Below are positions 1 through 16,085 of a stretch of 24,209 nucleotides of DNA, in pieces. The DNA is from a virus. Within the stretch, counting starts at the first letter, position 1; each line of letters starts with the position of its first letter. The stretch is from positions 1 to 24,209 of the IMG/VR virus record IMGVR_UViG_3300018065_000758; one strand, written 5' to 3'. Below the pieces are notes generated by a model, which had not been told where the DNA came from, did no database searches, and saw nothing but the letters and a program-made list of their open reading frames with translations. The translations under genes and the position numbers were made by a program.

Positions 1-285
1 GACGCATTTGTCAGATCACCTCGCAAGGGTGAGGTCTACAACATCGGCGGAGGGCGCCCGAACAGTGCGTCGATCCTTGAGGTGATCGATCTGATCGCGG
101 ATGTGTCCGGTCGACAGCTGGATTATGAACTTTCTCCTGACGCTCGAATAGGAGATCACATCTGCTACATCACGGACATGTCGAAATTTCACCAGCACTT
201 TCCGGAATGGAAACCTGAAGTCTCATTGCGGGATATGATCATCGAGATGGTCCAGTTTCATGAGAAAGGGAGCCGGGTTGTCTAA
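1..285 (+). CDS. NAD-dependent sugar epimerase, C-terminal part (CDP-paratose 2-epimerase-like)
   Basis: The reading frame is open from the first base and stops at 283-285, so only the last 94 residues are in the window. They resemble the substrate-binding C-terminal part of extended SDR sugar epimerases. The best match from memory is CDP-paratose/CDP-tyvelose 2-epimerase: VYNIGGGRPNSASILEVIDL near the beginning, then ARIGDHICYITDMSKFH, then a PEW-x-P-x-VSL-x-DMI segment. In that family these parts cover the nucleotide pocket and the final helices. The Rossmann fold and catalytic Tyr-x3-Lys lie upstream of the window. It is followed with a short overlap by a methyltransferase and sits in a sugar-nucleotide cassette, which supports a role in making a nucleotide sugar. 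The exact substrate is an inference; another SDR sugar epimerase or dehydratase is possible. Confidence 0.8.
   Translation, partial: DAFVRSPRKGEVYNIGGGRPNSASILEVIDLIADVSGRQLDYELSPDARIGDHICYITDMSKFHQHFPEWKPEVSLRDMIIEMVQFHEKGSRVV
266..272 (+). promoter_or_regulatory. ribosome binding site favouring the TTG start at 278
   Basis: AAGGGAG lies five bases before a TTG at 278 that overlaps the upstream stop codon. The in-frame ATG at 260 has no comparable purine-rich stretch before it. This is why the later start is preferred for the methyltransferase. Confidence 0.45.
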
Positions 286-964
286 GAATCTGTCAAAGGC
301 CGAGCTTGTCGGACGTGTTATGCTGTCAGTGCTGAATGCTGAGAAGCTAGCATCAGGTCTGCCACCTGAGATCATTCAGCTCGAGGGAATGTCGTCGCCG
401 AAGGTTCGGCACTTTCTCAACAGTGTCTGTTCTTTCGAGGACACGAGATACCTGGAAGTCGGGACAGCCGCAGGTTCAACTCACGTCTCAGCGATGTTTG
501 GGAACAGCCCGGAAGTGGCGGTCGGAATGGATCTGTGGCTTGAGCAGAAGAACGAGGGAGGAAAGGAAGCTTTTCTCGAGAACTGTGAGAAGTGCCTGGG
601 CCAGAAACCTACTGAGGAACCCAGTGATTGGTATCTCATGTCAGGCGACTGTTTCCAAGCAGATCTGTCCAAGATGCCCCACGACATCAATGTCTACTTC
701 TATGACGGTGGGCATGAGGTCGAGGATCACTTTCAAGCGCTCAAGTACTTTGAACCGATTCTGGCAGATCGTTTTATCATGATCATTGACGACTGGAATG
801 ACCACCGTGTTCAGCTCGGGACCCGACTAGCCATCAAGGAGGGGATGTACGACGTTGTCTTCTCCCACTACGGTCAGGCGAATCCCGGATCAACACCGGG
901 AGTCTTCGGTGACATGGCTGAGTGGTGGAACGGGATCCTGTTTCTCGTCCTGGAGAAGAAATGA
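278..964 (+). CDS. class I SAM-dependent methyltransferase (Methyltransf_24-like)
   Basis: Protein of 228 residues from TTG 278 (234 from the alternative ATG at 260). Motif I of a Rossmann methyltransferase is visible as YLEVGTAAGS (residues 58-67), followed by an acidic MDLW at 84-87 where the ribose of SAM is usually held, YDGGHEVED at 142-150 and IIDDWN at 169-174. This Y/D-D-G-x-H plus D-D-W pattern is typical of small methyltransferases that act on sugars or glycans in surface polysaccharide clusters (Methyltransf_24 group). The gene overlaps the end of the epimerase and its stop overlaps the next start (ATGA), so translational coupling is likely. The acceptor is unknown; methylation of a sugar made by the surrounding enzymes is an inference from context. 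No signal peptide or membrane segment is seen, so it is probably cytoplasmic. Confidence 0.8.
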   Translation: MSKNLSKAELVGRVMLSVLNAEKLASGLPPEIIQLEGMSSPKVRHFLNSVCSFEDTRYLEVGTAAGSTHVSAMFGNSPEVAVGMDLWLEQKNEGGKEAFLENCEKCLGQKPTEEPSDWYLMSGDCFQADLSKMPHDINVYFYDGGHEVEDHFQALKYFEPILADRFIMIIDDWNDHRVQLGTRLAIKEGMYDVVFSHYGQANPGSTPGVFGDMAEWWNGILFLVLEKK

Positions 965-1980
965 GCACGCCCAAGGTCACGTTTGGTGTCGTCAACTGCA
1001 ATCGTCTCTACTACCTTCGAAGTTGTGTGGAGTCCCTCCTCATCAGCACGGCGGACTTTCCGAGCAAGGAGCTCATCGTCGTGGACAACGCGTCGGTTGA
1101 GGCTGGGACCGAGGAGTACTTGTCTGAGCTGGAGGATCGGGGGTTCACAGTCATTCGTCAGAAGGAGAGGGATCCTTCCAACGAGTTCGCCCGGGGGCTG
1201 AATACGATCTGTCGACTAGCAAAGGGCGAATTCATTGTCCCGCTTCAGGGTGACATGCAGTTCGTTCTGGAAGGTGGATGGCTTGCTGAGTACGTGAGAT
1301 TCGCGGAGGCCCACGCTGATCAGGTCGGCTCGATCATTTTGAATGCTCAGCGGCGTTCGACGAATGAGTCTCACACCCTCATTCCGTTGTCGACCGAGGA
1401 CGAACCGTTCAAGTTTGTTCTCGACATGCACAGGGATCCTGTCGCGGGTGCGGGAGACGTCTTCTACTCCCGTGCTGTCATTGACAGGATTCTCCCGTGG
1501 TCTGAGTCCAACCAGAATCACGAGGGCGGAAAGGACTCAGAGACGAGAATGCTGGAGAAGGTCGCGAGGATGAAAGCTCAGGGTGAGGTGGAGTGGAAGC
1601 CGATTCAGCCTGTGATCTCACCTGCCATCACGATCAACACCGATCCACGTGGAACGAATGCACGGGTTAGAAAGAATCGACGATATGGCCAGTACTGGAG
1701 CCCCAAGGAGGACAGCTACAGGTACTACGAGATGATTCCATTCGAGATCGCCGTGGAAACCTACGCTGACCGTGCCGTTCCGGTAGGCATTGAGGAGCTG
1801 GTCCGACCGGTGGGCTTCAAGCCGTTCCTGGACGAGTGGGGCGCCTGGCTAAAGAACCCGATCCGACCTGAGACTGCTAGTTCAGATGATTGGGTCGAAC
1901 TTGATGATCCGTCGTTTACGAGCTCTCTTGAGGGTGAGTGCACAGACGATCCTGAATTTTTAGATTGGCTCCAGTCGTGA
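961..1980 (+). CDS. glycosyltransferase family 2-like protein
   Basis: The 339-residue protein starts at the ATG overlapping the methyltransferase stop (ATGA). An in-frame ATG at 922 would overlap the upstream gene by more than 40 bases and is less likely. The N-terminus follows the GT-A fold of family 2 glycosyltransferases: KVTFGVVNCNR, then a helix, then ELIVVDNASVEAGT (VVDNAS at 40-45), then ARGLNTICRLAKGEFIVPL. Where a DXD metal site is expected there is QGDMQ (GDMQ at 97-100), an atypical version. The expected function is transfer of a sugar from an activated donor to a glycan, protein or other acceptor in the cytoplasm. The C-terminal third has a basic RVRKNRRYGQYW segment and an acidic tail and was not recognised. 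The neighbouring sugar enzymes support a glycan role. Confidence 0.75.
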   Translation: MSTPKVTFGVVNCNRLYYLRSCVESLLISTADFPSKELIVVDNASVEAGTEEYLSELEDRGFTVIRQKERDPSNEFARGLNTICRLAKGEFIVPLQGDMQFVLEGGWLAEYVRFAEAHADQVGSIILNAQRRSTNESHTLIPLSTEDEPFKFVLDMHRDPVAGAGDVFYSRAVIDRILPWSESNQNHEGGKDSETRMLEKVARMKAQGEVEWKPIQPVISPAITINTDPRGTNARVRKNRRYGQYWSPKEDSYRYYEMIPFEIAVETYADRAVPVGIEELVRPVGFKPFLDEWGAWLKNPIRPETASSDDWVELDDPSFTSSLEGECTDDPEFLDWLQS

Positions 1981-1982
1981 GC

Positions 1983-2012
1983 CTTAAACGAATTGTCTCA
2001 TTTGAACAGTTC
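1983..2012 (+). promoter_or_regulatory. intergenic element A (CTTAAACGA + AATTGTCTCA)
   Basis: The 43-base gap before the carbamoyltransferase holds CTTAAACGA (1983-1991), repeated exactly at 6977-6985. It also holds AATTGTCTCA (1991-2000), the exact reverse complement of TGAGACAATT at 6101-6110. GAACAGTTC, a short inverted repeat, follows at 2004-2012. No clear -10 box lies at the right distance. A regulator site, promoter variant or RNA processing site are all possible. Confidence 0.4.
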
Positions 2013-2018
2013 GGAGGT
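2013..2018 (+). promoter_or_regulatory. ribosome binding site setting the GTG start at 2024
   Basis: GGAGGT lies five bases before the GTG at 2024, after which the protein begins MKIAGLWSGHD, the normal N-terminus of the carbamoyltransferase family. This fixes the non-ATG start. Confidence 0.7.
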
Positions 2019-2023
2019 GTTGA

Positions 2024-3643
2024 GTGAAAATCGCTGGTCTGTGGTCGGGTCATGACTGCTCTTGCTGTGTCCTGGAGGATGGTGTACCGATCATCCACGC
2101 AGAGTTGGAGAGATACATCCGCGAGAAGGAGCCGAAGGGTGACTCTGTCCAACTTCTCATGGATACCTGGGGCAAGCTTGACGACATCGATGAGTTTGTC
2201 ACGTGTTTTGGCAGCTCTCTCCTGGAGATGCGTGAGGGGCCTTGGCCATTAAGCGGTCACCGAGTTCACCCGTACGGTCACCATCTCGCTCACGCCGCCC
2301 ACGCATTCTACAGCAGCAAGTTCGACGATGCTGCGATCGTCACCATCGACGGGGGTGGCGTGGAGACACAGGATGGTTTCGAATCTGCCACGACCGCTTG
2401 GGCAGGTTCGGGAACCCAGATCCACCCAGGAAAGATCTGGCCTTCGCACAAGGTCAATATCGGAGGCCTCTGGACACGGGTCACAAGGTCGGTCTTTCGA
2501 CTTCAGAATGGTTGGCCACGAGGCCACCAGGCTGGGTCTGTCATGGCCATGGCCGCGATGGGCGATCGCACTCGATTTGTTAATGACTTTTGGCAGATGC
2601 TGACGAAGGATCTCCTGCTTGCATCCCAAAAGCCCAAGGGTCAACCGAGGGGAGCTTATACGGGTAACGATCCCAGGCATCCGTATCTGGGTCGGTACAC
2701 CGACTTGGCTGATGCAGACGATCAGACAAGGTACGACCTGGCAGCGGGCTTGCAGATGGCAACTGAGATCATGATTCGGCAGCTTCTCACAGCTGTTTTG
2801 CAGAATACTGACAGTCGAAACCTCTGCCTGTCCGGAGGGGTCGCTCTCAACTCGGTCGTTGTGGGCAAGATCTACGACTGGTTCCCGGATCGGATTGACA
2901 ATGTGTTCATTCCGCCGGTGCCTTACGACGGCGGGCTTAGTCTAGGAGCGGCCCAGTACCATTGGCACCACGAGCTGGGAAATCCTCGAATCGACTGGCA
3001 GGACAACCTTTCCCCGTACTTGGGTGAGGAGTACACGACCAGGCACATTCAGGCTCACCTGATGCCGTACGTCATGTCCGGTGCTGTAGAGACTCGAATT
3101 GTGTCCGAGAGCGACGTCATCGACCTGCTTGAGGATCAGAAGATCGTTGCGATTTTCACGGGTCGGTCAGAGTCGGGTCGTCGTGCTCTGGGCAACCGGA
3201 GCATTCTGGCAGATCCTAGATCCCCTGACATGAAGGATCAGATCAATCAGAAGGTCAAGCATCGTCAGTGGTACAGGCCCTTTGCCCCCTCGATCCTACG
3301 CGAGGATGTGGGAGAGTGGTTTACTCGGGACATTGAGAGTCCGTATATGAGCCACGTCGTTCCCTTCAGACCTGAGGTTCGAGACAAGATTCCTGCTGTT
3401 ATCCACTTTGATGGAACGGCCAGGCTTCAGTCAGTGTCTGAGATGGACAACCCAATCTATCACAGCCTCCTGTCAGCCTGGAAGGATCGGACGGGAGTTC
3501 CGATCCTGTTGAATACCAGCTTCAACGACCGGGAACCTATCTGTGAGACGGTGGAGCACGCGTTGAACTGCTACTTGCGGACCAACATCGATCACCTCTG
3601 GCTTCCGGAGCTGGAGGTTCTCGTGAGCAAGAAGGGGGAGTGA
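2024..3643 (+). CDS. carbamoyltransferase, NodU/CmcH family
   Basis: The 539-residue length is normal for the family. The N-terminal domain opens with MKIAGLWSGHDCSCCVLEDG, carries the metal/substrate histidines in GHHLAHAAHAF (H86, H87, H90) and continues into DDAAIVTIDGGG. Around residue 270 comes LCLSGGVALNSV. The C-terminal domain has GRSESGRRALGNRSIL near 380-395, then KHRQWYRPFAPSIL and a late LLNTSFNDREPI, all hallmarks of the family (Carbam_trans_N and _C). These enzymes use carbamoyl phosphate and ATP, through a carbamoyl-adenylate, to put a carbamoyl group on a hydroxyl of a sugar, an antibiotic or, in some phages, a hydroxymethylated cytosine in DNA. Which acceptor applies here is not visible; sugar is favoured by neighbours, DNA is a serious alternative. 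Its stop overlaps the next start (TGATG). Confidence 0.93.
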   Translation: MKIAGLWSGHDCSCCVLEDGVPIIHAELERYIREKEPKGDSVQLLMDTWGKLDDIDEFVTCFGSSLLEMREGPWPLSGHRVHPYGHHLAHAAHAFYSSKFDDAAIVTIDGGGVETQDGFESATTAWAGSGTQIHPGKIWPSHKVNIGGLWTRVTRSVFRLQNGWPRGHQAGSVMAMAAMGDRTRFVNDFWQMLTKDLLLASQKPKGQPRGAYTGNDPRHPYLGRYTDLADADDQTRYDLAAGLQMATEIMIRQLLTAVLQNTDSRNLCLSGGVALNSVVVGKIYDWFPDRIDNVFIPPVPYDGGLSLGAAQYHWHHELGNPRIDWQDNLSPYLGEEYTTRHIQAHLMPYVMSGAVETRIVSESDVIDLLEDQKIVAIFTGRSESGRRALGNRSILADPRSPDMKDQINQKVKHRQWYRPFAPSILREDVGEWFTRDIESPYMSHVVPFRPEVRDKIPAVIHFDGTARLQSVSEMDNPIYHSLLSAWKDRTGVPILLNTSFNDREPICETVEHALNCYLRTNIDHLWLPELEVLVSKKGE

Positions 3644-4560
3644 TGGAGAGGGACACAAGACCTGCGATCGGTGTGATTGGTCAGGGCTTCGTTGGGGGTA
3701 GCCTCACGACAGTTTTTCTGGAGCGTGGATTCAACGTGTACACCTACGATAAGGCGGGTGTGTACGTTCCGGGTTCCCACTGGAGGCAGGGAGCTGCTCC
3801 CTGGTCGGTCGAGCATCTCGTCAACGCGCTGTCTTACAAGAGGGCATCGCCTGTCGTATTTGTCTGTGTTCCAACACCCATGAGAAGGTCGGGTGAAGCT
3901 GATCTCTCAATCGTTGAGAGCGTCCTGGATGAGCTAAGCGAGGCATCAGAATCTGTTGATCGCGACCTGATCGCGGTCATCAAGTCGACAGTTCCTCCGG
4001 GTTCTACAGAGCGGTGGAATGAGAAGTACGCGGGAACAAAGCTTACCGTCGTTTTCAGTCCGGAGTTTCTGATGGAGGTGAGCGCTCTGGAGGATATGCG
4101 GACCCAGAGCAGGATCATCGTGGGAGGACCTAGACCGGCATCCACGATCGTCAAGAACACCTTCCGTCGTGCATTTCCGGAAGTCAAGATCATCAAGACC
4201 AGTTCCACAATCGCTGAGACGGTGAAGTACTTCACCAACAGCTTGCTGGCGACTAAGGTGAGTTGGGCGAATGAGATGTACCAGATCTGCGAGGGTCTCG
4301 GGATCGATTATGACAAGGTTGTCGAGTACGGCCTTCACGATCCGCGACTTGGCAAGACACACCTGTCCGTTCCCGGTCCTGATGGGCACTTCGGTTTCGG
4401 TGGTCACTGCTTCCCCAAGGACCTGAACGCTCTGATGTTCTTGGCCCGACAGCTGGGAGTCAAGACGACTGTCATGCAGGGAGTCTGGGACAAGAATGCT
4501 GAGGTTCGGGATGATAGGGATTGGGAGAGGCAGGTTGGTAGGGCAGTTTCGGAGGATTGA
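3643..4560 (+). CDS. UDP-glucose/GDP-mannose 6-dehydrogenase family, short form lacking the C-terminal domain
   Basis: The 305-residue protein starts at the ATG overlapping the previous stop; a GTG three bases earlier is an alternative. The NAD-binding domain shows GQGFVG (13-18). FVCVPTPM, VIKSTVPPGST and FSPEFLMEVSALEDM follow in family order. The central domain has AETVKYFTNSLLATK and ends in GFGGHCFPKDLNAL, with the catalytic cysteine at about residue 256. Family members oxidise UDP-glucose (or a similar sugar) twice to the uronic acid using NAD+. They usually have more than 400 residues because a third domain, which closes the nucleotide-sugar site, follows the central helix. Here the protein stops about 50 residues after the cysteine, so that domain is missing, although the frame is intact. 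Activity on UDP-glucose is therefore plausible but not certain. Confidence 0.88.
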   Translation: MERDTRPAIGVIGQGFVGGSLTTVFLERGFNVYTYDKAGVYVPGSHWRQGAAPWSVEHLVNALSYKRASPVVFVCVPTPMRRSGEADLSIVESVLDELSEASESVDRDLIAVIKSTVPPGSTERWNEKYAGTKLTVVFSPEFLMEVSALEDMRTQSRIIVGGPRPASTIVKNTFRRAFPEVKIIKTSSTIAETVKYFTNSLLATKVSWANEMYQICEGLGIDYDKVVEYGLHDPRLGKTHLSVPGPDGHFGFGGHCFPKDLNALMFLARQLGVKTTVMQGVWDKNAEVRDDRDWERQVGRAVSED

Positions 4561-5481
4561 GTGAGCTGGATCATACCGTACGGGTCGAGGTGCCTGGTCA
4601 CAGGTGGGCACGGTTTTATCGGATCTCACATCGTCGAGCGTCTCCTGAATGACGGTTGCAAGGTCACGGTGATCGACGATCACTCGGCTGTGTCGAATGA
4701 GTCGTTTGTCGAGTTTCCTGGCGCGTCCAACTACGTTCTGGACATTCGGGATCCTGCGACGGCGTGCTTGTACGAGAATGTGGACTACGTCTTCCACCTG
4801 GCCGCACGGGCGAGGATCCAGCCGACAATCGAGGATCCGAGTGACACGTTTATGAACAATACGATCGGAACCCAGATCGTTCTTGAGCACAGTCGACGTG
4901 CCCGGGTCAAGAGGGTGATCTACTCCGCCAGTAGTTCGGTCTACGGTCGAAAAAACTGGATGCCTCTCAGAGAAGACCAGCGAACTGACTGTCTTAATCC
5001 GTACTCCCTGTCAAAATTGCAGGGAGAGGAGCTGTGTGAGCTCTACGCGAGACTCTACGGGCTTCCCACAGTCGTTCTCAGGTATTTCAACGTTTACGGC
5101 CCTCGGGAGCCACTCAAGGGTGAGTACGCTCCCGTCATCGGAATCTTCAAGAAGCAGAGGGACGCGGGAAAGCCGCTTACCGTCGTTGGGACGGGAGAGA
5201 AGCGACGAGATTTTACGTACGTTCTGGACGTCGTTGAGGCCAATGTGAGGGCCGCTCTCTGTGTTCTACCGGAGAGGGAGGGTAGGTTCGTCAGGCTCAA
5301 TGTGGGAACGGGAAAGAACTACTCTGTTCTTGATGTTGCTCGCATGGTGGGAGGCCAGATCACCCACATTTCTGATCGTCCTGCGGAGGCCCTTGAGACC
5401 TTGGCGGACGTCTATCTTCTTGAGCATGTTCTCGAGTGGGTTCCGAGTCGTGATCTTTCCAGTATGATTGACAGCTACTAG
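4561..5481 (+). CDS. NAD-dependent epimerase/dehydratase (GalE/WbpP-like SDR)
   Basis: The protein has 306 residues from GTG 4561, directly after the previous stop, with GGAGG (4551-4555) five bases upstream. This is an extended SDR with TGGHGFIG (14-21) for NAD binding, FHLAARARIQ, SASSSVYG holding the catalytic Ser near 124-126, and the catalytic pair Y148/K152 in PYSLSKLQGEE. LRYFNVYGPRE and then TVVGTGEKRRDFTYVLDVVEA follow, close to the C4-epimerases of the GalE/WbpP/UDP-glucuronate-epimerase group rather than to UDP-glucuronate decarboxylases. Next to the dehydrogenase it would fit conversion of UDP-glucuronate to UDP-galacturonate, or a similar C4 inversion. The precise sugar is an inference. 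It is a different branch from the epimerase cut at the left edge. Confidence 0.9.
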   Translation: MSWIIPYGSRCLVTGGHGFIGSHIVERLLNDGCKVTVIDDHSAVSNESFVEFPGASNYVLDIRDPATACLYENVDYVFHLAARARIQPTIEDPSDTFMNNTIGTQIVLEHSRRARVKRVIYSASSSVYGRKNWMPLREDQRTDCLNPYSLSKLQGEELCELYARLYGLPTVVLRYFNVYGPREPLKGEYAPVIGIFKKQRDAGKPLTVVGTGEKRRDFTYVLDVVEANVRAALCVLPEREGRFVRLNVGTGKNYSVLDVARMVGGQITHISDRPAEALETLADVYLLEHVLEWVPSRDLSSMIDSY

Positions 5482-5488
5482 GTGCGAT

Positions 5489-6103
5489 ATGAAGATTATT
5501 GGGCTTCACGCGGAGATTATCGCTGATCAGATTCGACGCCTCTTCGCCAAAAAGGGTTACGTGTTCTTTGACGGAGATCGATCGTTTAATGTCAACATTG
5601 TTGGTATTCGATCTGCTAATCCGCGCTCTGGAAAATTTGACGATGCCCTTCTCGTTATCCAGAGGAGTGCTAGTAAGCAGTGGGAGGTCTACAGCTATCG
5701 GGTTACGACTGATCCAGGGACCTACTACCTGAAGAGCCCGATGAACGTGAAGGGGACAGCGATTTTGGTTCCAGGCCAGTATAGGTCAGCGTATGAGATC
5801 GGAACGCACAAGACCTACGACGCCTTGATCCAGAGGTCGGGTGCTGTGAAGGTCTGGAGGGATGCTGATCGGGATGACGTTCTGGACTGGGATGAGGGGC
5901 ACATTCACGAGGGATACTACGGGATCAACATCCACCGTTCTAAGCGGGGCGGAGAGAGTGAGTCGGTAGGTCGATGGTCCGCGGGATGTCAGGTCTTCAA
6001 AAATTCAGGTGATTTTGACGAGTTCATGGGCCTGTGCGAGAGATCGTCAGGGAAGTATGGGAATAAGTTCACGTACACTCTCATCAGGCAATCTGATACC
6101 TGA
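5489..6103 (+). CDS. YkuD-like (L,D-transpeptidase-fold) cell-wall protein with EF-hand-like loop
   Basis: The 204-residue protein starts at ATG 5489, eight bases after the previous stop; an upstream in-frame TTG at 5468 lies inside the epimerase gene. The second half carries GINIHRS (H149) followed after 18 residues by WSAGCQVF (C167). This matches in order and spacing the His and the Ser-His-Gly-Cys block of YkuD L,D-transpeptidases, which cut or form peptidoglycan cross-links through a cysteine. Just before it, DADRDDVLDWDE (125-136) has Asp at loop positions 1, 3 and 5 and Glu at 12, the pattern of an EF-hand calcium loop. No signal peptide is seen, so it may be a virion protein or be released by a holin. 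A role in lysis or entry through the cell wall is inferred; similar HR-x(n)-WSAGCQVF proteins occur in many phages with unproven function. Confidence 0.6.
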   Translation: MKIIGLHAEIIADQIRRLFAKKGYVFFDGDRSFNVNIVGIRSANPRSGKFDDALLVIQRSASKQWEVYSYRVTTDPGTYYLKSPMNVKGTAILVPGQYRSAYEIGTHKTYDALIQRSGAVKVWRDADRDDVLDWDEGHIHEGYYGINIHRSKRGGESESVGRWSAGCQVFKNSGDFDEFMGLCERSSGKYGNKFTYTLIRQSDT

Positions 6104-6126
6104 GACAATTCTGTTCGTTTAGAACA
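6101..6126 (+). promoter_or_regulatory. intergenic element B (TGAGACAATT + inverted repeat TGTTC-N5-GAACA)
   Basis: TGAGACAATT (6101-6110) includes the stop codon of the cell-wall gene and is the exact reverse complement of the word in element A. It is followed by TGTTC (6112-6116), GTTTA and GAACA (6122-6126), a perfect five-base inverted repeat that could be an operator or a small hairpin. CGTTTA here is the reverse complement of TAAACG in elements A and C. Confidence 0.4.
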
Positions 6127-6148
6127 TCGACTGGGTGCGTAGTATGAT
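6120..6148 (+). promoter_or_regulatory. possible promoter before the nuclease gene
   Basis: TATGAT (6143-6148) is one base from the TATAAT -10 consensus and lies just upstream of the GTG start at 6155. TAGAAC (6120-6125) is a weak -35 at 17 bases spacing. The predicted transcript would start at or close to the start codon, leaving almost no leader, which argues against it. Confidence 0.2.
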
Positions 6149-6154
6149 TCGGGT

Positions 6155-6970
6155 GTGAAGAACTACCCGACAAATCGAGAGCATGTCTCCTTCTCTGAGC
6201 TTAAGACGTGGGGAGAGTGTTCGTGGCGACACCACCTTCGGTACGTTCTGGGCCTCAAGGAGGTTGGGGACACCGTCTACACCGACTACGGTACTCTGAC
6301 GCATAACACGTCGGAAGCGTATCTACGAACCCGCGTCATGAACGTTGACGATGCGGAGGCAGAGTTTCGAAAGCTCTGGGTGAAACGTGGATATCCAAAC
6401 GGTCCTGATTGGCCCTCCTACGCCGACACCGACCTGGAGTCCTGGGTCAAAAATTTACGGGGAACTCTTGAGGCGATCCCAGCCTTTTTGGACGAGACGT
6501 TTCCGGAATGGGAGTTTGTGGATGCTGAGGCTGATCTGTCCGAGCCCATTCCGGATCAACAGCTCAAGTTCAAGGGATACGTGGACGCGATCATTCGGGT
6601 CAAGAAGCGGGGAAAGTGGATCTACTGGATTCTGGACTGGAAGACCGCACCCAAGCGGGGTTGGGACCGAAAGAAGAGATCGGACAAGTACACCACCATG
6701 CAGGTTGTCCTGTACAAGTACTTTTGGGCGATCAAGAACGACATTCCCATCAAGGATGTTAGGTGTGGGTACGTCCTCCTTCGTCGTGACGTTTCCAAAA
6801 AGAGGATTCAGTTCTTCGATGTATCAGCGGGGCCCAAGACGATCGAGAAGGCTCACAAGATGCTTCGAAATATGATCCGAATGGTGTCATCCGGCCGTGC
6901 TCTCAAGAATCGGTACGCGTGCACGTTCTGTGAGTTCAAGGGCACCGAGCACTGCAAGATCAATCTTTGA
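6155..6970 (+). CDS. PD-(D/E)XK nuclease with probable Fe-S cysteines (Cas4/AddB/RecB-nuclease-like)
   Basis: The protein has 271 residues from GTG 6155; no better start is visible. The RecB-type nuclease core is clear: H50 in GTLTH, D144 in FKGYVDAIIRV, then ILDWKT with D161 and K163, then QVVLYKYFW (motif QxxxY, Q183 to Y187). One cysteine lies near the N-terminus (C22 in WGECSWRHHLRY) and three at the C-terminus (C256, C259, C267, CTFCEF and EHCKI), the arrangement that holds a 4Fe-4S cluster in Cas4 and AddB. The expected activity is metal-dependent exonuclease or endonuclease action on DNA, in recombination, replication fork processing or host DNA breakdown. There is no cas1/cas2 gene or CRISPR array in the window, so a CRISPR role is unsupported. 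It stands alone between sugar genes, preceded by a 51-base gap with regulatory-looking sequence. Confidence 0.85.
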   Translation: MKNYPTNREHVSFSELKTWGECSWRHHLRYVLGLKEVGDTVYTDYGTLTHNTSEAYLRTRVMNVDDAEAEFRKLWVKRGYPNGPDWPSYADTDLESWVKNLRGTLEAIPAFLDETFPEWEFVDAEADLSEPIPDQQLKFKGYVDAIIRVKKRGKWIYWILDWKTAPKRGWDRKKRSDKYTTMQVVLYKYFWAIKNDIPIKDVRCGYVLLRRDVSKKRIQFFDVSAGPKTIEKAHKMLRNMIRMVSSGRALKNRYACTFCEFKGTEHCKINL

Positions 6971-6976
6971 ACTCCG

Positions 6977-7006
6977 CTTAAACGACTCACCTGAGACGGG
7001 TAAGAT
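6977..7006 (+). promoter_or_regulatory. possible promoter / intergenic element C (TTAAAC-N17-TAAGAT)
   Basis: CTTAAACGA (6977-6985) repeats the word in element A. TTAAAC (6978-6983) and TAAGAT (7001-7006) are separated by 17 bases, the ideal spacing for a sigma-70 promoter, but each box matches the consensus only partly. It would drive the two GT4 genes and perhaps the late sigma gene behind them. Confidence 0.3.
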
Positions 7007-7032
7007 TGGCACAGCAGTTATCTTGTCTCAGG
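6990..7032 (+). repeat. inverted repeat / leader hairpin before the first GT4 gene
   Basis: CCTGAGAC (6990-6997) is perfectly complementary to GTCTCAGG (7025-7032). Inside it, AAGAT (7002-7006) pairs with ATCTT (7020-7024), leaving a four-base bulge on one side and a 13-base loop. The right arm covers three bases of the ribosome binding site AGGAAGG (7030-7036) of the gene starting at 7040. Folding would partly hide this site. No T-tract follows, so it is not a standard terminator. Confidence 0.55.
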
Positions 7033-7039
7033 AAGGCGC

Positions 7040-8287
7040 ATGCCAGAAAAGAAGAAGATCCTGATGATCTCGGATCACGCCTTATCCACATCAGGGGTGG
7101 GCGTTCAGTCGAGGCACCTGATCAATGGTCTTATCGCGAAGGGAGAGTGGTCGGTCCGACAGCTGGGCGCGGCCATTAAGCACTCCAACTACGACCTGGT
7201 GAGGGTGAGTGACGACTTCATCATCAGACCGATTGACGGATTCGGTAATCGTGATATGTTGCGCCTGGTTCTTGCTCAGGAGCAGCCGGATGTCCTATTC
7301 ATCTTTACTGATCCCAGATTTTTTATCTGGCTCTTTGAGATGGAAGATGAGATTCACCAGATCTGTCCGATCGTCTGGTGGCACGTCTGGGACAATTACC
7401 CGATCCCGAAGTTCAACTACCCTCTCTACGAGGCGACGGACGCGATCAACTGTCACTCCCATCTGACATATCAGATGTGCGCTCAGGACTTTTTGAACAA
7501 GACCAAGTTCATTCCTCACGCGCTACCTGAGGATGTCTACTTTCCGATTCCTGAGAAGAACATCCGACAGGCTCGCGCCCAGATCTTGGGGGCGGACAGG
7601 GTGGATCACTTCATCGGGTTCTGGATCAATCGGAATGCTAAGAGAAAGCGGCCCAACGATCTCTTGATGGCCTGGTCAAAGTTTCTCGATGATTTGGAGT
7701 CAAAGCACGGTCATCGGAACGCGACCCTTCTCCTTCACACTGACCCGCTCGACAGTGAGGGTCCCAACCTCTTTGCTACGACAGAGAGATTTGGGATTGT
7801 CAACAATGTTTTCTTCTCGAAAGATCGACTGGGTTTTGACAAGATCAACGTTCTCCACAACATTGCTGACTTCTACGTCAACATCAGCTTCGCGGAGGGC
7901 TTTGGCCTGGGAACCCTGGAAGCGATGCAGTGTGGCAAGCCGATCATCGCGACGAAGACGGGTGGAATGACCCGACAGGTTGTCGATCATCGTGATGGAT
8001 CTGTGCACGGAGTGGGACTTGACATTGAGCTAAGGACGCTCGTGGGCAGCCAGCAGGTTCCTTACATCTACGAGGACTACGTCTCGGTCGAGACGATCGC
8101 CCAATCCTTCATGGAGATGTACGAGATGGGCCCGATCCGTCGTCGGCAGATCGGAGCGAAGGCGAGGCAGTACGTTTTGTCAGAGTTCTCCCTCCAGACG
8201 ACCATCGACCAGTGGCACGACTCCTTGAATGAGACCATTGAGCGGTTCAGGAATAGAAAGCACCGCTGGACCCTTGAGACGCTCTGA
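7040..8287 (+). CDS. GT4-like glycosyltransferase (first of a pair)
   Basis: The protein has 415 residues from ATG 7040, with AGGAAGG four bases upstream. It is a GT-B fold retaining glycosyltransferase. The N-terminal domain begins ILMISDHALSTSGVGVQSRH, a short glycine-rich acceptor-side loop. The C-terminal domain carries the donor-binding E-x7-E motif in FAEGFGLGTLEAM (E286 and E294), followed by CGKPIIATKTGG. HTDPLDSEGPNLF and FSKDRLGFDKINVLHNIADF fit the usual strand order before this motif. Such enzymes move a sugar from a nucleotide donor to glycans, lipids or proteins, and in phages sometimes to modified DNA bases. It is followed after seven bases by a second GT4 gene sharing the S-x-SG-x-GV-x-SR start, so the two probably act in the same pathway. 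Donor and acceptor are unknown. Confidence 0.88.
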   Translation: MPEKKKILMISDHALSTSGVGVQSRHLINGLIAKGEWSVRQLGAAIKHSNYDLVRVSDDFIIRPIDGFGNRDMLRLVLAQEQPDVLFIFTDPRFFIWLFEMEDEIHQICPIVWWHVWDNYPIPKFNYPLYEATDAINCHSHLTYQMCAQDFLNKTKFIPHALPEDVYFPIPEKNIRQARAQILGADRVDHFIGFWINRNAKRKRPNDLLMAWSKFLDDLESKHGHRNATLLLHTDPLDSEGPNLFATTERFGIVNNVFFSKDRLGFDKINVLHNIADFYVNISFAEGFGLGTLEAMQCGKPIIATKTGGMTRQVVDHRDGSVHGVGLDIELRTLVGSQQVPYIYEDYVSVETIAQSFMEMYEMGPIRRRQIGAKARQYVLSEFSLQTTIDQWHDSLNETIERFRNRKHRWTLETL

Positions 8288-8294
8288 GGATATC

Positions 8295-9458
8295 ATGAAG
8301 ACTGTTCTAATTCGAGCTCCCCTTCTCTCGATCAGCGGCTACGGCGTCCATTCTCGACAGATCTTTCGTTGGCTTCTGACGCAACCCGTGAACGTGATCG
8401 TCCAGATCGTTCCCTGGGGAAACACGTCCTGGATGATCAACCCGGACGCTGAGAGCGGTCTCGTCCGACAGATCATGGAGAAGTCACGTGCACCCGAGGA
8501 GATCGGTCGACCTGACGTAACCATTCAGGTGCAACTTCCCAATGAGTGGGATCCCAATCTGGGGAACGTGAACGTGGGCGTGTCCGCCTGGGTTGAGACG
8601 GAGACGTGCAATCCAGAGTGGATCGTCGCAGCGAACAAGATGTCCCACCTCGTGGTTCCGTCAACATTCACGAAGTCAGTGATCGAGAATACGGGCATCA
8701 TCACGCAACCGTTACACGTGATTCCTGAGGCATTCATCGATCAGGTCGCTCAGGAAAACTTACCTGAGCTTCCGCTTGACCTGAAATCGAAGTTCAACTT
8801 TCTGATGATCGGTCAGATCACTGGAAATGATCCTGGAAATGATCGAAAGAATAGCTTTCTCGCTCTCAAGTGGATCTGTGAGCAATTCAAGGACGATCCT
8901 GACGTGGGCCTAATCATTAAGACGAATAGCGCACGCGGAACGACAATTGACAAGGCAATCACACGACGATCTCTGAGCGGTGCGTTGAGCCAGATCAAGC
9001 GAGGACCCTATCCCCGGATCCACCTCCTGCACGGTGAGATGAGCTCGGAGGAGATGGCTGCCCTGTATCGTCATCCATCGATCAGGGCCCTGGTGAGCTT
9101 GACAAGAGGAGAGGGGTGGGGTCTTCCTCTGCTGGAGGCAGCTGCTTCAGGACTTCCTGTGATCGTGACGAACTGGTCGGGTCATCTGGACTTTCTGAGC
9201 ATGGGACGGTTCATCCCCGTCAGCTACACCTTGTCTCCCATTCCGGAGAATCGGGTGGATAGCAAGATCTTCATGACAGGTGCCCGATGGGCGATGCCTG
9301 ATGAGGAGGATGCGAAGCGAAAGCTACACAAGATGAGGATTCGTCCTGAGATACCAGAGAAGTGGGCGCGAGAGCTGGCCCCTAAGATTCGAGAATCATT
9401 CTCTCAGGTTGCGATCAACGGGCTTTACGATCAGGCTCTTGGGGACCTTTTCCGATGA
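8295..9458 (+). CDS. GT4-like glycosyltransferase (second of a pair)
   Basis: The protein has 387 residues from ATG 8295, which follows GAGGA and lies seven bases after the preceding stop; in-frame codons further upstream lie inside the previous gene. The N-terminus reads VLIRAPLLSISGYGVHSRQ, parallel to the first GT4 protein. The donor-site E-x7-E motif is in TRGEGWGLPLLEAAASG (E273 and E281), followed by LPVIVTNWSGHLDF. FLMIGQITGNDPGNDRKN is the start of the C-terminal Rossmann domain and holds an in-frame 12-base duplication. The role is glycosyl transfer in the cytoplasm, with unknown donor and acceptor. Its stop overlaps the next start (ATGA), which ties it to the membrane protein and late sigma gene downstream. 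Confidence 0.87.
   Translation: MKTVLIRAPLLSISGYGVHSRQIFRWLLTQPVNVIVQIVPWGNTSWMINPDAESGLVRQIMEKSRAPEEIGRPDVTIQVQLPNEWDPNLGNVNVGVSAWVETETCNPEWIVAANKMSHLVVPSTFTKSVIENTGIITQPLHVIPEAFIDQVAQENLPELPLDLKSKFNFLMIGQITGNDPGNDRKNSFLALKWICEQFKDDPDVGLIIKTNSARGTTIDKAITRRSLSGALSQIKRGPYPRIHLLHGEMSSEEMAALYRHPSIRALVSLTRGEGWGLPLLEAAASGLPVIVTNWSGHLDFLSMGRFIPVSYTLSPIPENRVDSKIFMTGARWAMPDEEDAKRKLHKMRIRPEIPEKWARELAPKIRESFSQVAINGLYDQALGDLFR
8821..8844 (+). repeat. 12-base perfect tandem duplication inside the second GT4 gene
   Basis: CTGGAAATGATC occurs twice without interruption. It is in frame and encodes the doubled GND of TGNDPGNDRK in the loop at the start of the donor-binding domain. It adds four residues and keeps the gene open. 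Confidence 0.9.
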
Positions 9459-9819: not shown

Positions 9820-10539
9820 GTGGCGTACGTCAAGAAGCGGAGACGGGTGAAGAAGAAGCGGAACATGTACTTCCACCAGGGCACGCAGGACGCGATCGTT
9901 GCCTACCAGCAGGCGGATGATCTTGCCGTGCGGGAAGAGCTTTACGTTAAGGAGATCTTTCCGGCATTCACGCAGCTGGCAGAGAATCTGATCTTCATGC
10001 ACGGGTTCGCGAAGGGGACGGATTTTGAGACCCTTCGAAATGATTGCGTGACTCACCTCTACGTGACGCTTGAAAAGTGGGATCCGGCCCGAGGAACAAA
10101 AGCTTTTTCATATTTCAATGTGGTTGCCAAACACTACCTGATCATTCAGACGAAGAAGCGCAAGAAGAATAATCGAAGACACATCAGCCTAGATGATGAG
10201 ACATCTCTAAGCTACGCTGAGAAGCGAATGATCGAGAAGTTCGGATACCTTCCGGGTCCGGATGACGTCATGATCATGAAGGATCGCCCTCAGGAGATTC
10301 AGGCACTCCTTCAGGAGATCAAGCTTCGGGTGAGTAATGAGAATGAGATCGCCTGCATCGACTCCATCCTGGAGATCTTCAATCGGGTGGATGATCTTGA
10401 CTTCTTGAATAAGCGTGCCATCTTCGTCTACCTGAGAGAGATTTCAGGACTTACTCCTAAGAAGCTGTCGATCGCGATGTCGGTAATCCGTCGGCACTAC
10501 AGAGAGCTTTCTAGAACTGACGACTTCGGCATATTTTGA
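9820..10539 (+). CDS. late-transcription sigma factor, T4 gp55-like
   Basis: The 239-residue protein starts at GTG 9820, with GAGGAGGA inside the end of the upstream gene. The first 18 residues are strongly basic (KKRRRVKKKR at 5-14). The sigma region 2 part has a helix rich in acidic and aromatic residues, then YVTLEKWDPARGTKAFSYFN and VVAKHYLI (FSYFNVVAKHYLI at 96-108), then a basic TKKRKKNNRR linker. This is the pattern of T4 gp55, the small sigma-like factor that directs host RNA polymerase to late promoters together with the sliding clamp. T4 gp55 has about 185 residues, so this one is longer, with an extra C-terminal helical domain. The last residues, RTDDFGIF, are acidic and hydrophobic like the clamp-binding tails of T4 late factors; this is an inference. 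It stands directly before the late structural genes it would switch on. Confidence 0.82.
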   Translation: MAYVKKRRRVKKKRNMYFHQGTQDAIVAYQQADDLAVREELYVKEIFPAFTQLAENLIFMHGFAKGTDFETLRNDCVTHLYVTLEKWDPARGTKAFSYFNVVAKHYLIIQTKKRKKNNRRHISLDDETSLSYAEKRMIEKFGYLPGPDDVMIMKDRPQEIQALLQEIKLRVSNENEIACIDSILEIFNRVDDLDFLNKRAIFVYLREISGLTPKKLSIAMSVIRRHYRELSRTDDFGIF

Positions 10540-13721: not shown

Positions 13722-13750
13722 TGAGATCTGATCGTGGGATACCTACCGAT

Positions 13751-13757
13751 AGGAGGA
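13751..13757 (+). promoter_or_regulatory. strong ribosome binding site fixing the gp25 start at GTG 13761
   Basis: AGGAGGA lies a few bases before GTG 13761. The in-frame GTG at 13734, which would add nine residues, has no such site, and the strong site would then lie inside the gene. Confidence 0.7.
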
Positions 13758-13760
13758 AGT

Positions 13761-14228
13761 GTGCCCACCTTCAAGAGCGTCGGAGATCTATCTACCGATC
13801 GTAAGTTCACGACGTCCGCACCCGTTGTTCCGATCGGGATCAGGACACCCCTCTCCTTGGGGAACAAGTCTGACGGCATCTTCGCCATGCACTTCAGCGT
13901 CGCCGATCAGATCCAGGACAACTTTCGTAATCTCCTGTTGACGAATCACAGTGAGCGACTAGGATTTCACGATTTCGGTGCGAACCTTCGAGCTTTAACG
14001 ATGGAGCTGACCCGCTCAAGTGAGCTCTTTGAGTCTGAGGTGGCCAACCGTGTCAAGGGCGCGGTCTCGAAGTACATGCCCTACATTGAGCTTCAACAAT
14101 TTGAGTACACGATCGATCAGGAGCAGAATCAGAACACTGCCAAGATCCGATTGCGGATACTTTACAACGTACCTTCCCTGAACGTTCAGAACAAGGGCAT
14201 CGAGCTCACGTTCTACCTCGCAGGCTAA
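13761..14228 (+). CDS. baseplate wedge protein, gp25-like (GPW/gp25 family)
   Basis: The protein has 155 residues from GTG 13761 (164 from the alternative GTG at 13734). The family signature is clear: PIGIRTPLSLGNKSDGIFAM, then a helix with DQIQDNFRNLLLTNHSERLG, then FHDFGANLRALTMEL, then a strand-rich end (NTAKIRLRILYNVPSL, ELTFYLAG). T4 gp25 has 132 residues, and related proteins in phages and type VI secretion systems have similar size. It forms part of the baseplate wedge where the sheath begins to assemble, bound to gp6. The gene is followed after nine bases by gp6, the usual neighbour in T4-like phages. No lysozyme active site is evident. Confidence 0.88.
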   Translation: MPTFKSVGDLSTDRKFTTSAPVVPIGIRTPLSLGNKSDGIFAMHFSVADQIQDNFRNLLLTNHSERLGFHDFGANLRALTMELTRSSELFESEVANRVKGAVSKYMPYIELQQFEYTIDQEQNQNTAKIRLRILYNVPSLNVQNKGIELTFYLAG

Positions 14229-14237
14229 GGAGAGACG

Positions 14238-16085
14238 GTGGCATTCGATGTCAAGAAGAGGATCAGGCCAGTTCGAAATCGGTCATACCTGAACAAGGAT
14301 TTTGATGCCTTTCGGGCGGAGCTCCTTCAGTACGCGCAGATCTACTTTCCGGATCGGATCAAGGACTTTAGTGAAGCATCCCTGGGCGGCCTCCTGCTCG
14401 ACTTTGCCGCCTTTGTGGGGGATGTCAACTCGTTCTACTTGGATCACCAGTTTGGTGAGCTAGACGTTGAGACTGCTGTTGAGACCAAGAATGTCGAGCG
14501 ACACATCCGGTCCGCGGGCGTGGAGATCACGGGAGCCGCTCCCGCTGTCGCACAGGTCACGTTCTATGTCGAGGTTCCCGCGGAGACCCTTAGTACAGGA
14601 AAGATCCAGCCCCAGGCGACAGCCCTGCCCAACATTCGGGAGGGCACAGTCCTCAAGGCGAACAATGGAGTGACGTTCGAGCTAACGGAGGACCTGGACT
14701 TCGGCAAGATTGACACGACCGGAGCCATCGTCGCCACCACGAAGATCTACACGACAGACTCGAATGGAAACCCGACTTCCTACATTCTCAGTCTGACGGG
14801 TGACTGTGTGTCCGGAACCGTCACCACCCAGTCGTTTCGGATTCCTAACACATACGTTCCGTTCCGAAAGATCACCCTGTCCAAGGAGAATGTGACTGAG
14901 ATCATCTCCGTGACTGACGTTGACGGGAATGAGTACTACGAGGTGTCTTCCTTGACTCAGGACACTGTCTTTCGGGGTGTTCTCAATACCGATGACGATG
15001 ACGAGCTTGTTGAGAAGAGCCTGGAGCTTCTTCCGGCACCCTACCGCTTCACGAGTGAGATGAGCTTTCAGACAGGGCTCACCTCCCTGCAGTTTGGTGG
15101 AGGTCGGGCTGAGACTCTGGATGACGACATTGTTCCCGATCCCAGCGAATTGGCCCTTCCACTCTACGGAAAGAAGACATTTTCTCGATTCTCAATTGAT
15201 CCGGGAAGCCTGCTCAGGACCCAGACACTGGGCATTGCTCCGATCAACACGTCGATCACTGTGAAGTATCGTTATGGTGGCGGGCTGACCCACAACGTGA
15301 GCGCGACCTCGATTCGGACGGTTAGCAGCTTGCTCATCAATTTTCCGGGTGGCGTATCCCAGTCTGTCGCGCAGAGTGTTCGAAGCTCGATTGACGTGAA
15401 GAACGATTCAGAGGCAGAGGGAGGGGATGATGCCCTCACCTTGGATGACCTTCGGGACAAGGTTCCAGCCGCACGAAATGCGCAGGAGCGGATCGTGACC
15501 CGGGAGGATTTGCTTGCTAGGGTTTACACGATGCCTGCCAACTTTGGTCGGGTATTTCGTGCAGGGGTCAGGTCGAATCCGAACAATCCATTGGCCACGC
15601 AGCTATTCATTGTCAGTCGAAACAGTGACAAGAAGCTCATCACGTCACCCGACACTCTCAAGAAGAATCTGCGAACGTATCTCAATCAGTACAGGTTGAT
15701 CTCCGACGCGATCGACATTCTGGATGCACAAGTTGTCAATGTCGGTGTGGATTTTCACGTGGCTGTCAGTCCATCATCCAACAAGAACACTGTCGTTCAG
15801 GGTGTGATCTCAGATCTCACCCGGTACTTCAACGTTCAGAATTTTCAGATCGACTCACCGATCAACCTGTCAGAGGTGCAAAACATCATCATCAATGGCA
15901 CGGGTGTGGTGTCGGTCATCGACCTGAAGGTCTCTAGTAAGTCAGGCATCATCCTGGGTCGGACGTACTCAGACGTCAATTTCAATGTTCCCTCGAATAC
16001 TGTCAAGGGCCTTGTGATCGGACCTCCGGGGAGTATCTTTGAGGTCAAGTATCCTGGCGTTGACATCGTCGGAAACGCCTCCTAA
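14238..16085 (+). CDS. baseplate wedge protein, gp6-like
   Basis: The protein has 615 residues from GTG 14238, with AAGGAGAG (14227-14234) upstream; T4 gp6 has 660. The N-terminal half shows the family's pattern: SYLNKDFDAFRAELLQYAQI, then YFPDRIKDFSEASLGGLLLD, then FAAFVGDVNSFYLDHQFGEL and VETKNVERHIRSAGVEITG, where an N-terminal helical part precedes strand-rich domains. The C-terminal part holds ALTLDDLRDKVPAARNAQER, IVTREDLLARVYTMPANFGR (baseplate J-like) and a later SPINLSEVQNIIINGTGVVS. gp6 dimers link the wedges into a ring that controls the opening of the baseplate. The preceding gp25 and this protein are a conserved pair, supporting the call. Confidence 0.88.
   Translation: MAFDVKKRIRPVRNRSYLNKDFDAFRAELLQYAQIYFPDRIKDFSEASLGGLLLDFAAFVGDVNSFYLDHQFGELDVETAVETKNVERHIRSAGVEITGAAPAVAQVTFYVEVPAETLSTGKIQPQATALPNIREGTVLKANNGVTFELTEDLDFGKIDTTGAIVATTKIYTTDSNGNPTSYILSLTGDCVSGTVTTQSFRIPNTYVPFRKITLSKENVTEIISVTDVDGNEYYEVSSLTQDTVFRGVLNTDDDDELVEKSLELLPAPYRFTSEMSFQTGLTSLQFGGGRAETLDDDIVPDPSELALPLYGKKTFSRFSIDPGSLLRTQTLGIAPINTSITVKYRYGGGLTHNVSATSIRTVSSLLINFPGGVSQSVAQSVRSSIDVKNDSEAEGGDDALTLDDLRDKVPAARNAQERIVTREDLLARVYTMPANFGRVFRAGVRSNPNNPLATQLFIVSRNSDKKLITSPDTLKKNLRTYLNQYRLISDAIDILDAQVVNVGVDFHVAVSPSSNKNTVVQGVISDLTRYFNVQNFQIDSPINLSEVQNIIINGTGVVSVIDLKVSSKSGIILGRTYSDVNFNVPSNTVKGLVIGPPGSIFEVKYPGVDIVGNAS

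Follow-up and report, generated by a model that had tools for sequence, protein, structure and literature searches.

What do the sugar genes at one end of a phage contig make, and to what do they attach it? The question is raised by positions 1–9458 of the IMG/VR viral record IMGVR_UViG_3300018065_000758, which was analysed over its entire 24,209 bases (the window). This region holds ten open reading frames (ORFs) on the + strand that overlap or nearly touch, as an earlier note on this DNA had described, with gaps between neighbours of −43 to +69 bases. Pfam, PHROGs and NCBIfam agree with that note in assigning eight of them to sugar-type enzymes: in order, a short-chain dehydrogenase/reductase (SDR) fragment (g1), a methyltransferase (g2), a GT2 glycosyltransferase (g3), a carbamoyltransferase (CBT; g4), a UDP-glucose-dehydrogenase-like enzyme (UGD; g5), an SDR (g6) and two GT4 glycosyltransferases (GT4a and GT4b; g9 and g10). 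Three assignments carry a qualification, since g1 is a fragment, g2 is sub-threshold in Pfam and g5 lacks the UDP-binding domain. The two non-sugar genes are an endolysin/L,D-transpeptidase-like gene (g7) and a PD-(D/E)XK nuclease (g8). The note had read the sugar genes as a single-pathway cassette. Comparison with relatives gives a different picture, namely a fixed nuclease–GT4–GT4 core joined to an exchangeable sugar island.

A conserved nuclease–GT4a–GT4b core

The first relatives were fetched through either UGD or the baseplate gene gp6, and the window proteins were compared with them by tblastn. The order nuclease–GT4a–GT4b–g11–sigma-like–g13–g14–gp25–gp6 recurs in these records. Since the UGD-fetched relatives form a sample biased towards UGD, a second sample was seeded with an alignment of GT4a, which avoids a sugar-pathway seed and gave 86 loci (80 viral and six from a genome collection). 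GT4b follows GT4a in 84 of the 85 eligible loci, and the nuclease comes before the pair in 63 of 64. On the 3′ side, the sigma-like gene is present in 81 of 84 and gp25 in 56 of 58. The arrangement of the 3′ half of the region thus recurs in almost all of the 86 loci and is not due to chance. The 86 loci are the best GT4a matches, so the identities taken from them, with a median of 62% for GT4a, are upper figures. In the gp6-seeded set the identities of GT4a (50–60%) stand beside those of gp6 (51–57%), and GT4a identities range from 29 to 76% in alignment A2.

An hhalign comparison (97%) identifies GT4a and GT4b as paralogues, and both keep the EX7E motif of the GT4 family; the GT4b alignments were made without L001, which has an in-frame stop. 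Going by its relatives, GT4b probably starts near 8298 and not at 8229, where the ORF can open. The predicted model of GT4a has a GT-B fold (pLDDT 91.7), and its nearest Foldseek matches are MshA, chlorovirus B736L and BshA. The likeness to B736L was not used to choose between a virion and a DNA acceptor, because glycosyltransferases acting on DNA match B736L too (PMC6024577).

The conserved GT4s are essentially phage-restricted. GT4a occurs in only six GTDB contigs, all within metagenome-assembled genomes, and at least three of these (L188, L189 and L191) carry the same phage late-gene neighbours, so that these are probably phage contigs in bins. L191 (NHDW01000006.1, 306 kb) belongs to a bin named Methylococcaceae TMED69, and L188 and L189 (PBIO01 contigs) to Halobacteriovorax SP2999. 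Two cultured phages, Flavobacterium phage immuto and Microcystis phage Mel-JY01, have the nuclease and the GT4 pair, in both cases beside other sugar genes. In Mel-JY01 an IMP-dehydrogenase-type gene lies between the nuclease and GT4a, and glycosyltransferase and methyltransferase genes come after the pair. The GT4a homologue of this phage (L104, 8998–10489) is annotated as two successive coding sequences, which suggests a frameshift or a sequencing or annotation error.

Exchangeable sugar genes before the core

Upstream of the core, 52 GT4a loci were eligible for comparison. Of these, 36 contain a short dehydrogenase (at least 35% identity) and 22 a g6-like SDR, followed by GT2 (four), CBT (three), the methyltransferase (one) and g7 (one). 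A Pfam tally of 123 upstream ORFs of relatives gave 23 matches to Epimerase and 22 to GDP_Man_Dehyd (these counts overlap), 11 to glycosyltransferase group 1, seven to GT2 and three each to DegT aminotransferase, NeuB, PIG-L and CBT, together with several methyltransferase models. The base composition of the first 9 kb of the window does not set it apart as foreign.

The gene set was unfamiliar to the earlier note, and a search of other phages located it elsewhere. The complete order SDR–methyltransferase–GT2–CBT–UGD–SDR–nuclease–GT4–GT4 is also found in the long contigs L129 and L140, the methyltransferases of which are of different subfamilies. L075 and L110 keep SDR–GT2–CBT–UGD–g7, and part of the window order is also seen in L141. 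The order SDR–methyltransferase–GT2–CBT–UGD is retained at about 50% identity, and UGD and SDR remain paired across two gene orders. In the closest relative, L075, a Phage_endo_I-type gene (8049–8825) lies between the dehydrogenase and g7, where the window has g6. A search of viral contigs with CBT only gave no match, the back-translated patterns being too specific.

The dehydrogenase and the carbamoyltransferase

The 306-residue g5 contains the NAD-binding and central domains (PF03721 and PF00984), scores 194.1 against 189.8 for TIGR03026 and keeps the active-site motif GGHCFPKD with the catalytic Cys. The UDP-binding C-terminal domain (PF03720) was found neither in g5 nor in its aligned relatives nor elsewhere in the window record. 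Together with 16 aligned relatives (276–332 residues; alignment A7, 17 sequences), g5 ends after the central domain, and its predicted model aligns with UDP-glucose dehydrogenase structures over part of their length only. All aligned members keep the NAD motif and the catalytic Cys with its adjacent residues, and share a conserved C-terminal DWE..GRA motif. The lack of the domain is family-wide and not the result of a frameshift. Supply of the domain by a separate gene was considered and rejected, as PF03720 was not matched in 23 of the 27 records; in the other four the domain lies inside longer frames (428–821 residues), once (in the L028 record) alongside the short enzyme. Either g5 binds its substrate differently, or the substrate is other than a UDP-sugar. 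The lack of the UDP-binding domain weakens one part of the sugar proposed earlier, an uncommon, possibly uronic, methylated and carbamoylated one: the word 'uronic'.

Both Carbam_trans domains of g4 score above the cut-off (PF02543, 66 bits; PF16861, 213 bits). Its His motif, HHLAH, aligns with that of TobZ, and the RALGxRS motif is present as RALGNRS. At the positions of TobZ W408, G421 and R423, placed by motif, g4 has Ile in place of Trp and keeps the G and R of RALGNRS; as the residues diagnostic of the cytosine enzymes are not specified in the text of the paper on them, no conclusion was drawn from this comparison. TobZ, GdmN and the novobiocin enzyme belong to this family, and a metagenomic member is a proven carbamoyltransferase of 5-hydroxymethylcytosine (5hmC) (PMC8670742).

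The acceptor of the glycan

As the earlier note held, several targets are possible, and sequence alone does not single one out. A hydropathy scan of 280 island-region ORFs from 30 relatives found no polytopic protein (two or more membrane segments). The initiating transferase (PF02397), the flippase (PF01943) and Wzy/WaaL (PF04932) gave no match in 27–28 relative records, in which the controls were positive. The sugar machinery is therefore soluble and has no lipid-carrier export path of its own. These absences make a cytoplasmic acceptor, either a phage protein or DNA, likelier than O-antigen export, and they disfavour the simple O-antigen cassette that the note had set against its own proposal.

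We favour an exchangeable glycan island with a conserved GT4-pair core, the acceptor of which is most likely a virion protein, and we consider this reading to have an even chance of being correct. Positions 1–9458 would be the 3′ portion of a phage island for glycan assembly. The cytoplasmic paralogues GT4a and GT4b would build a constant glycan base on one conserved phage acceptor, and the exchangeable upstream genes would provide activated sugars and decorations. In this phage, the sugar would be 4-epimerized and possibly oxidized, GT2 would add an extra residue, and the product would be O-methylated and O-carbamoylated. As the lipid-carrier and export enzymes are missing, the acceptor would be a cytoplasmic phage product, probably a virion protein, and related phages would bear different particle glycans on a shared target. 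We infer the donor sugars, the order of addition, the acceptor and the benefit, which may be altered recognition of the particle, from gene content and position. The preference for a virion protein comes from the place of the island beside late genes and from the precedent of mycobacteriophages, which glycosylate the capsid and tail tube with their own glycosyltransferases (PMC12363180).

Several observations weigh against this assignment. No acceptor was identified, and the phage could borrow export machinery from its host. In immuto and Mel-JY01 the GT4 pair lies apart from the baseplate genes, and in RM378 the neighbours of the glycosyltransferase pair are ribonucleotide reductase and a DNA-polymerase-I-like gene. 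Four relatives, among them both long contigs with the window gene order, carry a gene resembling deoxycytidine monophosphate (dCMP) hydroxymethylase. The mycobacteriophage precedent involves other enzymes: in Che8, Corndog and Myrna, glycosylated capsid and tail proteins are linked to phage-encoded glycosyltransferases, but the clustered Che8 enzymes (gp108–110) belong to the GT2 and GT25 families (a GT2/methyltransferase fusion, a GT2 and a GT25 type), unlike the GT4 pair of the window, and no relation of gp108 to GT4a or GT4b could be detected. A link between the GT2 and methyltransferase of the window and the fused gp108 was tested and found unsupported.

DNA is the other cytoplasmic candidate. 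Phage 5hmC could be glycosylated by GT4a and GT4b, with the cassette supplying or decorating the sugar, or CBT could carbamoylate 5hmC directly to 5-carbamoyloxymethylcytosine. Activity on 5hmC within the CBT family speaks for this, as do T4 and RB69, which glycosylate hydroxymethylcytosine through GT-B enzymes (PMC6024577), and the neighbouring g8 would fit a nuclease sparing modified DNA. The window, a 24-kb fragment of a genome, contains no dCMP hydroxymethylase. Among GT4-bearing records, a hydroxymethylase-like gene occurs in four of 33 and is missing from 29, including contigs of 322, 257, 236 and 172 kb, which may be incomplete; a C5-methyltransferase occurs in one of 23. The four proteins (L194, L195, L196 and L197, from the records of L140, L129, L161 and L191, respectively) are divergent members of the thymidylate synthase (TS) family with Asp at the Asn177 position, a mark of the cytosine-specific enzymes of this family (PMC8670742). 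Each of their genes adjoins one that, by eye, resembles a gene for the alpha subunit of DNA polymerase III. A cytosine-specific TS homologue is present in two of the seven CBT-bearing relatives. The association of CBT with the hydroxymethylase-like gene is not significant (one-sided Fisher p = 0.19; both, 2; CBT only, 5; hydroxymethylase only, 2; neither, 24), and CBTs flanked by glycosyltransferase group 1 genes are reported to derive from unmodified contigs (PMC8670742). The absence of Tet_JBP was discounted, as that search had no positive control. In immuto, an annotated 7-deazaguanine DNA-modification pathway (L107, 18607–36971; DpdA, QueC/D/E/F, FolE) is present alongside the GT4 pair. 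The GT4 pair does not appear to depend on cytosine modification genes, and the rarity of the hydroxymethylase-like gene argues that cytosine glycosylation is not the general function. The RB69-type reading of the earlier note therefore does not hold as a general one, and cytosine glycosylation is possible in some relatives. Since L140 and L129, which share the window order, carry the TS-family gene, the DNA reading is alive for the window; overall, we consider it rather unlikely.

The remaining alternatives place the product outside the particle or deny a joint product. Sugars fed into the host lipopolysaccharide (LPS) or capsule could block superinfection or alter the surface during infection; the gene content resembles LPS/O-antigen clusters, and the same role has been proposed for clusters of jumbo cyanophages (PMC7824862). 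We regard this conversion of the host envelope as unlikely, given that export functions were not found in the island and its relatives, that the GT4s hardly occur outside phages and that the core is placed with the sigma-like/baseplate block. A diffusible secondary metabolite, such as a carbamoylated and methylated glycoside, is suggested by other members of the CBT family, TobZ, GdmN and the novobiocin enzyme among them, and by the role put forward for the second cluster of jumbo cyanophages, in which a CBT is present (PMC7824862). The window has no aglycone-making enzyme, though, and the GT4 pair is kept where CBT is absent, which leaves this explanation the least probable of those considered here. 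Finally, the upstream sugar genes could be in transit through a hot spot of gene exchange without acting together, in which case the GT4 pair alone would matter. Neighbour turnover is indeed high, with an endolysin-like gene inserted here and a Phage_endo_I-type gene in L075, and 'stuffer DNA' has been considered for the cyanophage clusters (PMC3037559). Most of the Pfam-named cargo is nevertheless sugar-related, and both the UGD–SDR pairing and the retained five-gene order speak against random passage; we consider this highly improbable.

Comparison with known systems

The island is best described as a variant of the cyanophage sugar-cluster theme, in which the GT4-pair core with its exchangeable cargo is new. 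The function of cyanophage sugar clusters with a Nol-like CBT has been left open or assigned to an outer polysaccharide or a metabolite (PMC3037559, PMC7824862). The T4-like cyanophages P-SSM2, S-SSM7, S-CAM1 and S-CAM3 resemble the window in combining a Nol-like CBT with a nucleotide-sugar epimerase and other sugar genes, and the LPS-like clusters of such phages vary from phage to phage and have an unknown target, as does the window island (PMC3037559). However, they have no tblastn match to GT4a or GT4b, their CBTs are about 30–32% identical to g4, and in P-SSM2 and S-CAM1 the partners of CBT are heptose kinase/isomerase genes, of which the window, cut upstream by the contig end, has none. 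Pelagibacter phage HTVC008M likewise carries, in a single cluster, a glycosyltransferase, a methyltransferase, CBT and UDP-glucose dehydrogenase, but its dehydrogenase is longer (381 versus 306 residues), its CBT is 33% identical and GT4a and GT4b have no match.

In immuto (48–60 kb), nuclease–GT4–GT4 is arranged as in the window and is followed by GT2, a methyltransferase, an epimerase and more glycosyltransferases. This region differs in having WecE-type aminotransferases and a pilin-glycosylation-type protein, in lacking CBT and in its location away from the baseplate genes. Moraphages are jumbo phages from aquatic habitats that are predicted to infect Bacteroidota, and their core genes include gp25, gp6, a sigma factor and four orthogroups of glycosyltransferases; the sections consulted describe neither the order of the glycosyltransferase genes nor a sugar island (PMC12619734). 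The 5hmC carbamoyltransferase is of the same family as g4 but adjoins a TS homologue, whereas g4 lies among glycosyltransferase and sugar genes (PMC8670742).

Features of the window

The coordinates are collected in Table 1. The contig begins within g1, which explains its fragmentary state; a full-length counterpart is found at L129:973–2007 (PF01370, 3.3e-35). The match of g2 to phrog_1458, a PHROG of unknown function, is firm, its score for PF13578 (23.1 bits) is below the cut-off of 26.3, and it is 28–34% identical to cyanophage proteins. For g3, no match was found in the cultured phages searched, and counterparts with 50–62% identity are present in L075, L129, L140 and L038. The closest solved structures to g6 are NAD-dependent epimerases. 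About 43% identity links g7 to Bacteroides/crAss-like phage proteins, which would weakly fit a Bacteroidota host.

On the 3′ side of g10 lie a small membrane-segment protein, a weakly sigma-like gene and then gp25/gp6-type baseplate genes. The earlier note had placed the cassette before a late sigma gene and the late module. Its position before a sigma-like/baseplate block holds; the sigma identity is doubtful, as the window copy of g12 gave no family match and Sigma70_r2 was found in two of 11 relatives (best E = 0.034). The gp6 homologue of immuto is annotated as baseplate wedge. Further downstream, the late block (17604–21146) encodes a large structural protein of 1180 residues with a Laminin_G_3 (concanavalin-like) domain.

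Table 1. Genes of the sugar region and its 3′ neighbours in the window.
Gene	Assignment	Position	Strand	Evidence
g1	NAD-dependent epimerase/dehydratase (SDR), C-terminal 94 residues only	1..285	+	phrog_540 1.7e-6; galE-like 1.8e-9
g2	Class I methyltransferase (Methyltransf_24-like)	260..964	+	phrog_1458 7e-23; PF13578 1.4e-4
g3	GT2 family glycosyltransferase	922..1980	+	PF00535 7.9e-13
g4	O-carbamoyltransferase (CBT), NodU/TobZ family	2024..3643	+	PF16861 3.2e-63; PF02543 4.3e-18; TobZ 3e-54; phrog_1601 9e-107
g5	Short UDP-glucose/GDP-mannose dehydrogenase-like (UGD), without UDP-binding C-terminal domain	3640..4560	+	PF03721, PF00984; no PF03720
g6	SDR, 4-epimerase type	4561..5481	+	PF01370 2.1e-54; SSSVYG and YSLSK motifs
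g7	Endolysin/L,D-transpeptidase-like (SAGC), passenger in island	5468..6103	+	phrog_3000 4.6e-40; phrog_33083 endolysin 8e-20
g8	PD-(D/E)XK (RecB/Cas4-like) nuclease	6155..6970	+	PF12705 8e-22
g9	GT4a, GT-B glycosyltransferase	7040..8287	+	PF00534 1.3e-12; EGFGLGTLE motif
g10	GT4b, GT4a paralogue	8298..9458	+	PF00534 1.3e-8; EGWGLPLLE motif
g11	Small protein, N-terminal membrane segment	9455..9817	+	Hydrophobicity scan; kept after GT4b in 80/84 eligible loci
g12	Putative sigma factor (weak)	9820..10539	+	Position 3′ of GT4 pair in 81/84 eligible loci
gp25-like and gp6-like	Baseplate wedge genes	13734..16085	+	phrog_43, phrog_219

Implications for large phages

Large phages have been recognized as carriers of sugar clusters ever since marine cyanophages were first sequenced, the target being unknown. 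The GT4 pair, constant both in composition and in position, offers a handle on this problem, as its acceptor can be sought in a cultured phage, either immuto or Mel-JY01, with a result that would hold for hundreds of phages from the environment. Tentatively, and with less confidence than in the reading favoured above, we suggest that widespread large tailed phages may possess a particle 'serotype' system, in which the constant GT4 pair would prime a virion-protein glycan, the exchangeable island would vary the outer sugars (carbamoylated, methylated, nonulosonic, amino or oxidized) and a new family of dehydrogenases without the UDP-binding domain would take part. If the acceptor is DNA, the island would represent a large new set of DNA sugars. 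If it is a virion protein, the particles of these phages would bear a glycan that diversifies much as the O-antigen varies in bacteria.

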